Assembly (NCBI GenBank): GCA_030427255.1
Contig: JAUHWY010000011.1
Location: forward strand, 1 to 64,000
Length of the DNA: 64,000 nucleotides
Origin: Bacteroidia bacterium
Lineage (GTDB): Bacteria > Bacteroidota > Bacteroidia > CAIKAF01
Direction of reading: 5' to 3'
Position 1 is the first letter of the stretch. Every line of letters starts with the position of its first letter. Positions 1-8,640 of this stretch are shown here, piece by piece. The translations under genes and the position numbers were made by a program. The notes under the pieces were generated by a model. The model searched no databases and was not told the DNA's origin. It worked only from the letters and a program-made list of their open reading frames with translations.

Positions 1-775
1 AGATTTGGGTTCCGTTATAGTTGCTGGTAACAGCAGCCGTTGCGGTAACAATCGGCGGTTCGGTGATGGTGATGCTGTCGGTGAAGGTGCAACCGTTGGC
101 ATCTGTCACAGTGTAGCTGTAGGTTCCTGCCGCCATGCCATTGTTGGTCATATTGGTGGAACCATTGCTCCACAATATGGTGTAGTTGGGCGTTCCTCCG
201 GCTGGAGTTGCGACCAGTGTACCGTCGGAAGCTCCGTTGCAAGAGATTTGGGTTCCGTTATAGTTGCTGGTAACGGTGGCCGTTGCGGTAACAATCGGCG
301 GTTCGGTGATGGTGATGCTGTCGGTGAAGGTGCAACCGTTGGCATCTGTTAGAGTGTAGCTGAAAGTTCCTGCCGCCACGCCATTGTTGGTCATATTGGT
401 AGAACCATTGCTCCACAATATGGTGTAGTTGGGCGTTCCTCCGGCCGGAGTTGCGGCCAGCGTACCATCGGAAGCTCCGTTGCAAGAGATTTGGGTTCCG
501 TTATAATTGCTGGTAACGGTGGCCGTTGCGGTAACAATCGGCGGTTCGGTTATGGTGATGTTGTCGGTGAAGATGCAACCGTTGGCATCTGTGACGGTGT
601 AGCTGAAAGTTCCTGCGGCCACGCCATTATTGATCATATTGGTGGAACCATTGCTCCACAATATGGTGTAGTTGGGCGTTCCTCCGGCCGGAGTCGCGAC
701 CAGCGTACCATCGGAAGCTCCATTGCAAGAGATTTGGGTTCCATTATAGTTGCTGGTAACGGCGGCTGTTGCCGT
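1..775. repeat. Tandem 243-bp coding repeats (SprB units)
   Basis: The same sequence phase (AGATTTGGGTTCC) recurs at 1, 244, 487 and 730, an exact 243-bp period or 81 codons. Copies differ at only a few percent of bases, so they look recently duplicated or homogenised by recombination. Copy number further left cannot be seen and may be collapsed in an assembly. Confidence 0.9.
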
Positions 776-3729: not shown

Positions 3730-4124
3730 GTGAGATAGCTAATCTTTGATTTGGGCAATCGAAAGAAGAAAATCCGCAGAAACGGTGAAGTAGAGGAAAC
3801 GATAATTCGCGAGATAGAAGTTGGAAAGGCTGATAAATACAAAAGCCCAAACCCAACATCTATTGGAAGCCATGGCCTACCATTTAAAGCGGTCCCCCGG
3901 CCTGGTTATGTTCATGAGTTAAAAAAGGAGGAAAAGGGGGCGATTTCGCCCGAAATGCCATGAAAAAGGTCAAAAATGTGACCAAAACAATCGAAAAAAT
4001 TATAAAATCTCGAAATTGAGGCAGAAAAAATCAAGAATAAGCACCTAAAAAGGGCTTGGTTGAAAACGTCAACGGTCTCAACCGGTTAGTTGATCAGTTC
4101 AACAAGATAAAACCAATCAACATT

Positions 4125-4142
4125 TGATGTTTTTATGCATCA
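4125..4142. promoter_or_regulatory. HipB-1 operator O1 (TGATG-N8-CATCA)
   Basis: An 18-bp inverted repeat with half-sites TGATG and CATCA separated by 8 bases. It is the most upstream of three identical-architecture palindromes before hipB-1. The spacing matches the N8 layout of the E. coli HipB operator, although the half-site sequence differs. Confidence 0.6.
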
Positions 4143-4165
4143 TTATCGTTATTTAAAAGTCTTTA

Positions 4166-4183
4166 TGATGCTTATATACATCA
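4166..4183. promoter_or_regulatory. HipB-1 operator O2 (TGATG-N8-CATCA)
   Basis: Second 18-bp palindrome, centre 41 bp from O1. It lies just upstream of the -33 element (4192-4195). Confidence 0.65.
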
Positions 4184-4191
4184 TTTGGTTT

Positions 4192-4223
4192 TTTGGATAA
4201 TACCCCTTTATTCAGTATATTTG
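4192..4223 (+). promoter_or_regulatory. hipBA-1 promoter, TTTG-N20-TATATTTG
   Basis: TTTG at 4192-4195 and TATATTTG at 4216-4223 are separated by 20 bases and both match the Bacteroidota consensus exactly. The -7 box shares two bases with operator O3, and the -33 box is 8 bases after O2, so a bound repressor would block RNA polymerase. Confidence 0.7.
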
Positions 4224-4239
4224 ATGTGATTTTACATCA
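4222..4239. promoter_or_regulatory. HipB-1 operator O3 (TGATG-N8-CATCA)
   Basis: Third 18-bp palindrome, centre 56 bp from O2, covering the end of the -7 box and the predicted transcription start. It fits autorepression of the toxin-antitoxin operon. Confidence 0.65.
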
Positions 4240-4261
4240 TTAAAGCTTAATTCTGGCTATT

Positions 4262-4612
4262 ATGAAGGAATTTTCCACCATAGAGTTGAAGCAAATGACT
4301 GATGATATGATCATTAAGGCCATTGGCGAATACATACGATCAATACGATTAGAAAGAAATTTAACCCAAGAACAATTGGGTGATCGGTCAGGTGTCCATA
4401 GAACGACCATACGTGACCTTGAATTGGGGAAGAGAAGTACACTGCTTACACTCATACAAGTATTGCGTTCATTGGACCAATTACAAACTCTGAAAAACTT
4501 CAAGGTTTCAAAGGAGTTGAGTCCACTTGAACTGGCAAAACTCGAAACCAAGGAAAGGAAACGAGCAAGCGGGTCAACATCTGATCAGAAAACCAATACA
4601 TCAGACTGGTAA
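4262..4612 (+). CDS. hipB: HipB-like antitoxin / XRE-family repressor
   Basis: A 116-aa protein with a Cro/C1-type helix-turn-helix at about 24-75 (RSIRLERNLTQEQLGDRSGV, then HRTTIRDLELGKR). The C-terminal tail is polar and Lys/Ser-rich. The stop shares bases with the ATG of the next gene (TAATG, 4609-4614), so translation is probably coupled to the HipA-like toxin. By analogy with HipB it should neutralise the toxin and, with it, repress the operon through the three palindromes upstream. It belongs to the HipB/YdaS-like class by context; sequence alone gives only the XRE family. Confidence 0.85.
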   Translation: MKEFSTIELKQMTDDMIIKAIGEYIRSIRLERNLTQEQLGDRSGVHRTTIRDLELGKRSTLLTLIQVLRSLDQLQTLKNFKVSKELSPLELAKLETKERKRASGSTSDQKTNTSDW

Positions 4613-5913
4613 TGATCAGAACAGCATATGTCAATATTTGGAACAAGCGAGTTGGTGCAGTTGCTTGGAATGAGAATGATGGGACAGCATCATTTGAGTA
4701 TGACCCTGATTTCATTGAAACCGGATTGGATTTATCACCCATTATGATGCCTTTGGATGAATCTCGGAATTACAGATTCCCGGATCATCGAAACACATCT
4801 ACATTTAAAGGTTTACCGGGATTGCTCGCTGATGTCCTGCCAGACAAATATGGTAATGCACTCATCAACCAATGGCTCCTTAGAAACAACAGGCCGGCCA
4901 ATAGTATAAACCCGGTAGAAACCCTGTGTTTTATTGGTCAGAGAGCAATGGGCGCATTGGAGTTTGAGCCTACGGTACCTAAGACAAAAGGGCACTCCAT
5001 TAAACTTGAAATGAGTGAACTGATTGACATCACCTCAAAAATTCTTTCAGGAAGGCAAGAGTTTCTCACCAAGCTCCAGCCAAATCAAGAAAAAGCCTTA
5101 CAAGAAATCTTAAAAATCGGAACATCTGCCGGTGGAGCACGAGCAAAAGCATTGATCGCATTCAATAAGGAAACTAAGGAGATTAGGAGTGGTCAAGCTA
5201 ATGCGCCCAAGGGATTTGAACATTACCTAATCAAGTTTGATGGCATTGAAGATGAGCAATTTGGCACATCCATAGGATATGGAAGGGTTGAAATGGCTTA
5301 TTACAAGATGGCCCTTGATGCAGGAATTGAAATGATGGAAAGTGAATTGCTTGAAGAAAATGGCCGAGCACACTTCATGACCAAAAGGTTTGACCGGGTA
5401 CAAGGAAAGGATAAAATTCATGTCCAGTCTTTCTGTGCCATGCGGCACTATGACTTCAAAGACATTGATGTATACTCCTATGAAGACTTATTCGAGACCA
5501 TGAGGCTTCTTGTATTGCCCTACCCTCAAGCAGAACAGCTATTCAGAAGAATGGTGTTCAATGTTATTGCTCGAAACTGCGATGACCATACAAAGAATTT
5601 TGCCTTCACCATGGATAAAAGTGGAGAATGGTCACTTTCTCCGGCTTTTGACGTCTGCCATGCCTATCGACCATCCAGTACATGGGTGAGTCAACATTGC
5701 TTGAGCGTCAATGGTAAAAGAAACAACATTGAACGATCAGACTTGCTCGAGGTGGCAAGAAAAATGAATATCAAAGGAGCTAGTAAGATCATTGATCAGG
5801 TAGATCAAGTGATCGGAAGGTGGAGAGCATATGCAAATGAACAGAAAGTTGATCCGGAGTTAAGGGATGCCATCGAAAGTACGCTTGTTAGAATGAATAA
5901 AGATAAAGCATGA
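4612..5913 (+). CDS. hipA: HipA-family serine/threonine kinase toxin
   Basis: At 433 aa this is close to the length of E. coli HipA (440), which phosphorylates GltX and induces persistence. It carries a glycine-rich nucleotide loop GTSAGGARAKA (about 170-180). The catalytic loop NCDDHTKNF (about 321-329) has the expected DDH-x2-N pattern, and SPAFDV (about 343-348) is the Mg-binding segment. The N-terminal subdomain is also present, so this is a full-length HipA rather than a split HipST form. It overlaps the gene before by one base and the gene after by four (ATGA), forming a three-gene operon. The residues needed for kinase activity look intact; the target is unknown. Confidence 0.93.
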   Translation: MIRTAYVNIWNKRVGAVAWNENDGTASFEYDPDFIETGLDLSPIMMPLDESRNYRFPDHRNTSTFKGLPGLLADVLPDKYGNALINQWLLRNNRPANSINPVETLCFIGQRAMGALEFEPTVPKTKGHSIKLEMSELIDITSKILSGRQEFLTKLQPNQEKALQEILKIGTSAGGARAKALIAFNKETKEIRSGQANAPKGFEHYLIKFDGIEDEQFGTSIGYGRVEMAYYKMALDAGIEMMESELLEENGRAHFMTKRFDRVQGKDKIHVQSFCAMRHYDFKDIDVYSYEDLFETMRLLVLPYPQAEQLFRRMVFNVIARNCDDHTKNFAFTMDKSGEWSLSPAFDVCHAYRPSSTWVSQHCLSVNGKRNNIERSDLLEVARKMNIKGASKIIDQVDQVIGRWRAYANEQKVDPELRDAIESTLVRMNKDKA

Positions 5914-6308
5914 AACTACAAAAGATAGAGTACAGCGATCTTAAATCTCGGCAGAAAGAAAACTATAATTACCATAAAATTGCTTCAATACTTGCCGACT
6001 ATGGTTACAACTCCATATGGCTGAACGACGACTGGGAAGGTGCAGACTTCATTGCCATACATATTGATGGAAATCAGATGTTGAAGGTACAACTGAAAGG
6101 AAGGGTGACCATCGACCAGAAGTATTTAGGTAAAGACATTTCCATTGCTTTTTCGTTGGACCAAACCAGCTACTACCTCTATCCACATGACGAAATATTC
6201 GAATTGATTACTGATCATTCAGATGGAGCAAAAAAGAATGGAGCAAGGAGTATTCATTATATTCCTAAATGGCTTATTCCTCATCTGGAAAAGTACAAAT
6301 TGGCCTAA
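5910..6308 (+). CDS. Third gene of the hipBA-1 operon; small protein with PD-(D/E)XK-like signature
   Basis: A 132-aa protein starting inside the hipA stop (ATGA overlap), hence almost certainly co-translated. I do not recognise a named family. Residues 43-65 read as EGADFIAI ... LKVQLKGR: an Asp (46) followed about 15 residues later by hydrophobic-Gln-x-Lys (Q61, K63). This is the layout of the D-Xn-(E/Q)XK core of restriction-endonuclease-like proteins, especially those written GxDf...vQvKgr. No signal peptide or membrane segment. Inferred role: a nuclease-fold accessory effector or a modulator of the HipA toxin. Other readings, such as an inactive structural domain, remain open. Confidence 0.7.
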   Translation: MKLQKIEYSDLKSRQKENYNYHKIASILADYGYNSIWLNDDWEGADFIAIHIDGNQMLKVQLKGRVTIDQKYLGKDISIAFSLDQTSYYLYPHDEIFELITDHSDGAKKNGARSIHYIPKWLIPHLEKYKLA

Positions 6309-6375
6309 CAATGTACCTTATTTGTACCTGTAGTCGTCGGCCAAAACTGGACAAAAAAATCCAAATGCTTAAATT

Positions 6376-6446
6376 ATGTTTATGAGCAAACAAAGAAAAA
6401 CGTTCAGTTCCACCTTCAAGACCAAGGTAGCCTTGCAAGCCATATT
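6376..6446 (+). pseudogene. Truncated IS3-family transposase OrfA remnant
   Basis: From the ATG at 6382 the frame reads SKQRKTFSSTFKTKVALQAI, which resembles the first 20 or so residues of IS3-type OrfA (RR/KxYSxEFKxKVALEAI). The similarity stops near 6447, where the 3' end of the convergent hipA-2 begins. The preceding 45 bases (from about 6330) could be the IS left end. No inverted repeat or OrfB is left. This marks an old insertion between the two hip modules. Confidence 0.55.
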
Positions 6447-7712
6447 TTATTCAGAAAATCTAAAGGCCCTGGACTTAAGCGCACACTCGGCATTAGAAAT
6501 ACCATATTTTTTGGCAACACCTCTCCAGTGTTTAACCGCATGGGTTACTTCTTCCATAATTTTGTGAGCACGCGTAGTATCCAATCTAAAGAATTTAGCT
6601 ACCTCTAGTGCCAAATCAAAATCCAGGGCGTTATTGCTGTTTGAAATGTTCAAACTAAGCCCTGTTCCTGTCTCCATAGGGTTGATATCATAAGCCGGAG
6701 AAAGGACCCAACCTTCAGCATGAAGAATAAAACCATGATTGCGCAAATGATCATCGGTATTCGATACACTGATGCTGAAAACTATCCTTCGCCAAAGCTC
6801 TTCCAAATCAGCTTCTACATTTCCTCCGTAGGTAGTCAAAAAATCAACAATATCAAGATAGCTTGCCCCTTCTTGGCCATCAACAAAACCTAGCATAGTC
6901 ATGGCCGAGGCGAAATGAACTCTTTTTCCATCCGATGTGCGATCGAAGCGTTTGGTTAAAAAGGTGTGGTGCTTACCGGAAAACTGTTGTGCCTTACATT
7001 CTGCCATTTTTATTCCCGCAGCTTTCGCTAACTCATAGGTTACCGTTTCCCAGGCTCCAATATTAAATGAATCATGGCCACTGGGGAATTTTGCAATCCA
7101 TAGATGTCCCTGTTCATCCACTATATTTGCTTTAGGTCGTGCACCACCCAAAGAACTCCCTGGAGCCACTAACCTATTTAACCATTTAAGATAGTCTGGA
7201 TCATCCACCACATTTTCATCTTCCAACCTTAAACTGGCTTGTTCCAATTCCCGAATAGATGCCCATGGCGGAGATGCCATTTGGTTGTTGTTATCTAAAA
7301 ATGGTCCATTTGCAGCCAGTTTGAAACGGAGTCCGCCCATCCGATTACCGTCATATACACCCAATAGGTAATCTGTTTCATACAGATTGCGCTCTCTCCT
7401 TCCTTCCTTTCTGGCTAATGCTGCCTCCCGTCTCCGCATCAGAATTCTCCCCCATCGATCGGGTGAAGAATCCAAGAAAGCACCAAAATTTGCTTTATCA
7501 TCATTCAGATAGTGTAATCCGGAATATAAGGTCAAATCAGGATCTAAAACCTGTGCAAATCCTTCCTGAAGCCATTCCTGTTCATACTCGAATGAAAAGA
7601 CCTCCTTGCCTCGCAACAACTCAGAATGAAGCACCCCTATGAGGCTTGGGCCATTTATTTCCTTCCAATCGGCATACACGTATAAATCTCTTCGTGCGCT
7701 TTTTTTATTCAT
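6447..7712 (-). CDS. hipA: Second HipA-family kinase toxin, divergent from the first
   Basis: A 421-aa HipA-like protein, clearly paralogous in fold but different in sequence from the one at 4612. The nucleotide loop SLGGARPKAN is at about 187-196, the catalytic loop NTDDHLRNHGF at 318-328, and SPAYDINP at 338-345. All kinase residues appear present. Its ATG overlaps the stop of the antitoxin gene by four bases (ATGA). No third gene follows; the IS3 relic lies immediately beyond its stop. The module converges on hipBA-1, so the two toxin genes meet tail to tail. Confidence 0.93.
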   Translation of the reverse strand: MNKKSARRDLYVYADWKEINGPSLIGVLHSELLRGKEVFSFEYEQEWLQEGFAQVLDPDLTLYSGLHYLNDDKANFGAFLDSSPDRWGRILMRRREAALARKEGRRERNLYETDYLLGVYDGNRMGGLRFKLAANGPFLDNNNQMASPPWASIRELEQASLRLEDENVVDDPDYLKWLNRLVAPGSSLGGARPKANIVDEQGHLWIAKFPSGHDSFNIGAWETVTYELAKAAGIKMAECKAQQFSGKHHTFLTKRFDRTSDGKRVHFASAMTMLGFVDGQEGASYLDIVDFLTTYGGNVEADLEELWRRIVFSISVSNTDDHLRNHGFILHAEGWVLSPAYDINPMETGTGLSLNISNSNNALDFDLALEVAKFFRLDTTRAHKIMEEVTHAVKHWRGVAKKYGISNAECALKSRAFRFSE

Positions 7713-8032
7713 GATGGCTTATTCCTTTTAGGTGCGCGCTTGCCGGTTTCCAAGTTTGCGTCTTGTAGTTTTCTTCCCAATGCATCATCCTTGGCTACAA
7801 GTAAGAAATCCTTCTCCAGGCCGAGCACTTTTAATACATTCAGGTATTGACCAATCCCAACACCAGGGTGGCCCTGCTCGATCTTCAATAGAGTAGTCCG
7901 TCCCATCCCGGCACGCTCCGCTACTTGTGTGGTGCTCAATTTTCTTCTGAGACGCGCCAATCGTATATTCTCGCCAAGCTCTTCCATTATGCGCTGAATC
8001 CTTGGAAGTAAAGTCGGGGTCTTATTTGCCAT
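7709..8032 (-). CDS. hipB: HipB-like antitoxin of module 2
   Basis: A 107-aa protein with an XRE helix-turn-helix at about 20-75 (IRLARLRRKLSTTQVAERAG, then MGRTTLLKIEQG) and a basic C-terminal tail. It overlaps hipA-2 by four bases. The ATG at 8032 lies inside the left arm of a 17-bp inverted repeat that also contains the -7 box, so autoregulation is likely. It differs from the first HipB in sequence and in operator, which argues against cross-regulation. Confidence 0.85.
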   Translation of the reverse strand: MANKTPTLLPRIQRIMEELGENIRLARLRRKLSTTQVAERAGMGRTTLLKIEQGHPGVGIGQYLNVLKVLGLEKDFLLVAKDDALGRKLQDANLETGKRAPKRNKPS

Positions 8033-8087
8033 AATGTATTATTAAAGATACAAATATATGTATTTTTGATTCTTTAATCATACATTA
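8032..8087 (-). promoter_or_regulatory. hipBA-2 promoter with nested inverted repeats
   Basis: The -7 box TATATTTG lies at 8058-8051 (minus strand), with TATG, one mismatch from TTTG, 20 bases upstream (8082-8079). An outer inverted repeat pairs 8032-8048 with 8071-8087 (16 of 17 bases). An inner one, ATACA-N6-TGTAT, spans 8048-8063 and covers the -7 box. This fits a repressor site over the promoter. Confidence 0.6.
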
Positions 8088-8206
8088 AGCAATGTTATGC
8101 GTTCAACTCAATTCAATGCAACTTAGCCTTCAAAAGGATAAAAGCTCCAACTATTCCATAGCGGAATACAACGCAGACCCTAATGTTCTTTTCAGGGTTA
8201 AAATAC

Positions 8207-8290
8207 TGACTCGAAGATGCTGACTCGAAGATGCTGACTCGAAGATGCTGACTCGAAGATGCTGACTCGAAGATGCTGACTCGAAGATGC
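8207..8290. repeat. Six identical 14-bp tandem repeats (TGACTCGAAGATGC)
   Basis: Six perfect head-to-tail copies starting at 8207, 8221, 8235, 8249, 8263 and 8277. It passes directly into a second array of 13-bp units. Confidence 0.95.
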
Positions 8291-8294
8291 TGAC

Positions 8295-8383
8295 CGCAGC
8301 GTCAGTACGCAGCGTTAGCACGCAGCGTCAATACGTAGCGTCAGCACGCAGCGTCAGTACGTAGCGTCAGTACGTAGCGTCAG
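8295..8383. repeat. Seven 13-bp tandem repeats (CGYAGCGTYARYA)
   Basis: Seven near-identical units from 8295, the last partial. Each equals half of the CTGACCGCAGCGTCAG palindrome found at 48.3 and 56.5 kb, so the array seems to have grown from that module. Confidence 0.9.
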
Positions 8384-8427
8384 GAACAAGATTGCTGTTA
8401 GGTTAGCAAGGAGTAGACCGTCTCAAA

Positions 8428-8640
8428 CTATGCAAGTGAAAAAGCCCCGACAATCAAACTTAAAACCCCGCTGATTACAATAATCCAAACTAAGGTGTTG
8501 GTATTCCCCCTGGTTTTCTCCGCTGCCTCATAGGTCAACCAGTTCGTATACAGGATTTCCATCTGTATGTCTTTTTCTGTATAATCCTGCCTATTGGACT
8601 CAAATTCAATGCGCTTTTGCGATTTTGGAGCTTCTGACAT
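8428..8640 (-). CDS. Small single-span membrane protein, unknown function
   Basis: A 70-aa ORF with a polar N-terminal half (MSEAPKSQKRIEFESNRQDY...) and one C-terminal transmembrane helix at about 49-69 (TLVWIIVISGVLSLIVGAFS). Composition and the tail-anchor-like layout look genuine, but no family is recognised. It stands alone beside the decayed MITE copy. It could be a short chance ORF. Confidence 0.5.
   Translation of the reverse strand: MSEAPKSQKRIEFESNRQDYTEKDIQMEILYTNWLTYEAAEKTRGNTNTLVWIIVISGVLSLIVGAFSLA

Follow-up and report, generated by a model that had tools for sequence, protein, structure and literature searches.

The window, the whole stretch of 64,000 nucleotides that was analysed (positions 1 to 64,000 of contig JAUHWY010000011.1 from a Bacteroidia bacterium), carries on its plus strand a group of three co-directional genes that overlap one another. 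The first, hipB (4262-4612), encodes a putative 116-aa HTH antitoxin and autoregulator (HTH_3, 1.1e-10; couple_hipB, 1.7e-11, which lies under the curated cut-off). This runs into hipA (4612-5913), which encodes a 433-aa protein with the features of a full-length HipA Ser/Thr kinase toxin; the two reading frames share one base at 4612 within the junction TAATG. The third gene (P0003, 5910-6308) shares the four bases ATGA (5910-5913) with the 3′ end of hipA, and encodes a 132-aa protein with a predicted PD-(D/E)XK fold and the residues D46...Q61-L-K63.

The N- and C-terminal domains of HipA are present in a single chain (PF13657, 66 bits and PF07804, 169 bits). The kinase motifs comprise S172 in TSAGGARAK, the catalytic D324 in NCDDHTKN and the Mg-binding D347 in PAFDV, and the motifs of D324 and D347 align with the same motifs of Legionella HipT(Lp), for which structures have been solved. 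With an HTH antitoxin gene immediately 5′ of a full-length kinase having both catalytic and Mg-binding motifs, hipB-hipA is, as judged from its sequence, a complete and conventional toxin-antitoxin module. Three co-directional genes with 1- and 4-base overlaps, and a full-length HipA with intact catalytic residues, had been noted in a preliminary description of this DNA; the open reading frames, both Pfam domains and the kinase motifs bear this out.

Upstream of hipB lie three perfect copies of an 18-base, operator-like palindrome, TGATGY-N6-RCATCA (4125-4142, 4166-4183 and 4222-4239), with no further exact match in the window. Allowing up to one mismatch gives 4 matches, a number reached in 0 of 100 shuffles. 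In other hipBA modules HipB operators are located upstream and HipB blocks the HipA kinase; by analogy the three palindromes are probably HipB operators. Taken with the gene overlaps, these operator-like palindromes suggest one HipB-controlled transcript covering all three genes. HipB would bind the three palindromes, and by virtue of the overlaps all three genes would be repressed together, while the HipA kinase would be blocked by HipB as in other hipBA modules.

The genes lie within a variable stretch of 4.7 kb (3764-8437), placed after mnmE, that is missing from a sister species (G004). The two genomes are colinear on both sides of it with 87-90% nucleotide identity, and the corresponding gap in G004 is occupied by a different HTH gene. 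In the window the stretch holds both of two hipBA modules, the nuclease gene and an IS fragment. The fragment directly follows the third gene and is the left end of an element that we take to be IS3-type (6328-6443, ~116 bases, plus strand), including the N-terminus of orfA (MSKQRKTFSSTFKTKVALQAI); elsewhere in this genome, stretches 80-94% identical to it are found in five further positions. The G+C content is 37.8% in the third gene, 42% in hipA and 47.4% in the window. Acquisition of the nuclease gene by rearrangement in a variable spot fits these observations.

The second hipBA module (6447-8032, minus strand) is only distantly related to the first, and converges on it tail to tail with the IS fragment in between. 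It comprises hipB2 (7709-8032, minus strand), the HTH partner (HTH_31, 7.4e-10) of hipA2 (6447-7712, minus strand), which encodes a second HipA of 421 aa (PF07804, 2.2e-52). The palindromes, the IS fragment and this second module are all absent from the preliminary description. The hipBA of G004 (59% identical) is located in a separate insert that matches window 27272/27277. This insert of ~4 kb (L146, 8602-12574) contains hipBA together with 322-aa and 279-aa genes, which are presumably AbiEi/nucleotidyltransferase-like, and its place is empty in the window. At the start of the window (1-772) a 243-base unit is repeated in tandem, with 3.2 copies and a 94% match, and may belong to a gene for a repetitive surface protein.

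The 132-aa protein was modelled with AlphaFold2 using an alignment of 47 sequences, giving a pLDDT of 93.2 and a pTM of 0.85. The confident predicted model has the alpha-beta-beta-beta core of the PD-(D/E)XK fold with the D and (E/Q)xK elements on neighbouring strands, D46 being located on strand 45-51 and Q61-K63 closing strand 57-62; the conserved residues sit at the active-site positions of this fold. The structural neighbours (Foldseek, VIA-align) include Hjc (2wcw, Z 9.1), I-Ssp6803I (2ost, Z 8.7) and the DREN of SPARDA (9qcc, Z 8.2), scores that are only slightly over the tool's 'common' level, with top rows that consistently belong to one fold class. Several restriction enzymes are also among the matches. 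E17, D41, G44, D46, Q61, K63 and R65 are invariant in 47 of the 47 aligned relatives, so that D46/Q61/K63 is not a chance match. Both the three residues and the PD-(D/E)XK-like character had been put forward from the sequence in the preliminary description, and the fold prediction, structural matches and alignment bear them out. The window copy is alone among the 47 in having no Trp at the otherwise invariant position 107, and the loop there is shorter. A PD-(D/E)XK fold with a D...QxK active site is thus well founded on the predicted model, from which we infer a DNA nuclease that depends on metal and is of the I-Ssp6803I/DREN/Hjc type.

Searches with the single 132-aa sequence gave nothing useful against Pfam, NCBIfam and PDB sequences, and no match in phage genomes; PADLOC returned just PDC-M02A (E 0.033). 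Assignment to DUF4365 was considered and rejected: the protein has no Pfam match, and comparison of the family profile with five DUF4365 sequences was negative. Among the 47 relatives 8 have DUF4365 Pfam matches, which are weak (best E 0.0012).

Relatives of the nuclease were gathered from plasmids (9), Bacteroidota genomes (2 besides the window), GTDB species genomes (80 of 208, spread over many phyla) and viral contigs (5). The family ORF was not recovered in 2 of the resulting 97 loci (L019 and L097). When all ORFs of each locus were searched for HipA, it was found near the family gene in 1 of the 97 fetched loci, several of them short or cut off where a contig ends, and that one is the window's own. 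The converse comparison gives the same picture: among the closest relatives of HipA whose loci were fetched (57-68% identity), hipB is present in 29 of 29 and the nuclease in none. In a 395-genome sample of the class HipA relatives are present in 166, and a profile search detects the nuclease in one, the present genome. The phylum sample has the nuclease in 3 of 395 genomes including this one, the profile search giving the same set, and the other two Bacteroidota carriers have no HipA within their 1.5-kb flanks. The preliminary description had envisaged a distinct HipBA-nuclease system and had called for a neighbourhood survey of whether homologues always follow hipA. They are scattered over many phyla, an outcome that the description had itself named as refuting, and none of those fetched besides that of the window is near HipA; the proposal does not survive these counts. 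The HipBA-nuclease layout is a one-off within everything searched and not a recurring system, and a single case of this kind does not qualify as a new type of defence. Rarer HipA-linked copies of the nuclease may exist, the genome-contig relatives covered being those 80 of the 208. In the literature searched, hipBA is nowhere described together with a nuclease gene; Gerdes et al. distinguish 10 Hip gene organisations, none with a nuclease being named in the available passages of that paper (PMC8262856).

The family has a more regular home elsewhere. An MmeI-like MTase (~915 aa) is encoded near the family gene in 39 of 95 loci (about 40%), and 37 of these 39 also carry a DEAD helicase (~690 aa) and a GIY-YIG/T5orf172 protein (~398 aa). 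The usual order is MTase, family gene, helicase, GIY-YIG. These loci (L002, L003, L017, L018, L020, L021, L023, L024, L034, L088 and ~29 more) are mostly from Alphaproteobacteria; in L088, from a member of the Bacteroidia, all four cassette genes are present with the family gene last, overlapping the upstream gene by 4 bases. The DnmA(YeeA)-YeeB-YeeC cassette has been described with three genes, with mention of unnamed, uncharacterized neighbours, and an effect on phage sensitivity is reported for its Vibrio version (PMC9973331). In cassettes of this type the family gene looks like a fourth component, so far without a name. No homologues of the MTase, helicase or GIY-YIG protein were found in the 3.4 kb around the third gene of the window (L001). 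A useful by-product of the analysis is this nuclease family, which recurs as an extra gene in the DnmA-YeeB-YeeC cassette, is found in many phyla, has a strict E...D...QxK site and has no fitting Pfam or NCBIfam model.

Other members occupy various positions. Within four species of Paracoccus (L046, L061, L083 and L087) the family gene lies directly after the same neighbour, identified as pdxJ in L061, with either a 4-base overlap or a 2-base gap between the two, and gives the impression of having settled in the chromosome there; the gene downstream (~135-160 aa) may by its position be acpS. It is found after recG and after alaS in other loci. A copy in Paenochrobactrum gallinarii (L026, 6004-6414) lies between ruvA and ruvB, which is suggestive given the Hjc-like fold. 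In a member of the Verrucomicrobiaceae (L080) the family gene follows a phage tape-measure gene, and the same ORF arrangement occurs in viral contigs L093 and L094. A protein of 323 aa from a member of the Dehalococcoidia (L047, 5938-6909) contains two tandem copies of the domain, the second seemingly without the QxK site. In a tree the window copy grouped with orphans outside the cassette; the grouping is weak (90/84), the branch long and the columns few, and so no origin was drawn from it.

The locus probably arose by a recent capture, in this lineage, of a stand-alone, active-looking PD-(D/E)XK nuclease downstream of a complete hipBA, where it would be regulated by HipB. The toxin-antitoxin pair would work normally, with the nuclease co-expressed by chance of its position; what the latter would gain from its place behind hipA is mainly a HipB-controlled, low-dose expression. 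The third protein would act alone or with partners of its own, independently of HipA, and the data can be explained without any dedicated biochemical connection of the kinase to the nuclease. Since the active site is intact the third gene is not simply decaying debris.

A true tripartite module, in which the nuclease would be a second toxin or defence effector, restrained by HipB or through phosphorylation by HipA and freed upon loss of HipB or phage infection, is unlikely. In its favour, the overlaps are tight with one operator region, the kinase and nuclease active sites are both intact, the nuclease relatives belong to a restriction-type cassette, and activated DREN nucleases can kill cells (PMC12205087). 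This has to be set against a single occurrence, with no other fetched family member beside HipA and no examined HipA relative with the nuclease. Nor is the 4-base overlap a special sign of partnership with HipA, because overlaps of the same kind are formed with unrelated upstream partners (pdxJ, the cassette MTase and the GIY-YIG gene). That such a module has newly formed here, with HipB repressing and the HipA kinase regulating a DREN-like nuclease, is distinctly improbable; if true, one operon would bring together a translation block and DNA cleavage as its two effectors. Some functional link could have evolved, because the ATGA overlap and the common operator region make co-expression likely; we give little credence to a new coupling that evolved after capture, interesting as it would be, which nothing beyond that likely co-expression supports.

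Very unlikely is a selfish free-standing endonuclease of the homing type, which would insert itself into ever new sites and for which hipBA would be one place of landing among others. The homing endonuclease I-Ssp6803I is among the best structural matches, and the family gene is found in many unrelated operons (those of pdxJ, ruvA/ruvB, recG, alaS and the phage tape-measure gene) with little disruption. However, no intron or intein is seen, the position is stable across species in Paracoccus and in the MmeI-like cassette as expected for a useful gene, and Hjc and DREN have the same fold and are not homing enzymes. The least probable reading, in which an IS-linked rearrangement made the junction and the third protein is a passenger, inactive or irrelevant, that is due to be lost, draws on the IS fragment just behind the gene, the single occurrence and the Trp missing in this one sequence of 47 with its shortened loop, but is countered by an open frame, the retention of all catalytic residues and a fold predicted with high confidence.

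Among known systems, the locus resembles type II HipBA in the hipB-hipA order, the HTH antitoxin, the full-length two-domain HipA kinase and the operator-like palindromes upstream, and differs in the extra co-oriented gene after hipA, which none of the 29 closest relatives examined has. It shares with HipBST three genes and a Hip kinase. In contrast to that system, where HipS is a protein of its own encoded upstream of the short kinase HipT, HipA is unsplit here, PF13657 and PF07804 being in one chain; the third protein has a nuclease fold and follows hipA, where HipBST has a HipS-like domain before the kinase.

The third protein itself matches the fold of I-Ssp6803I and archaeal Hjc along almost its entire length (Z 8.7-9.1, rmsd 2.8-3.0), whereas the identity is ~15%, and there is no intron and no evidence of junction cutting here. 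The DREN/DUF4365 domain of SPARDA has the same PD-(D/E)XK fold and a similar size. Its catalytic residues in NbaSPARDA are D41, Q60 and K62 (PMC12205087), corresponding to D46, Q61 and K63, and its G-I-D...V-Q-I-K setting mirrors G-A-D46...V-Q61-L-K63 of the third protein. The sequence homology is marginal, and unlike SPARDA there is no APAZ domain and no short Argonaute in hipB, hipA or the 132-aa gene. While the operon in the window is without a DnmA(YeeA)-YeeB-YeeC cassette, it is in or at such a cluster of MmeI-like MTase, helicase and GIY-YIG protein that the 39 family loci described above are found.
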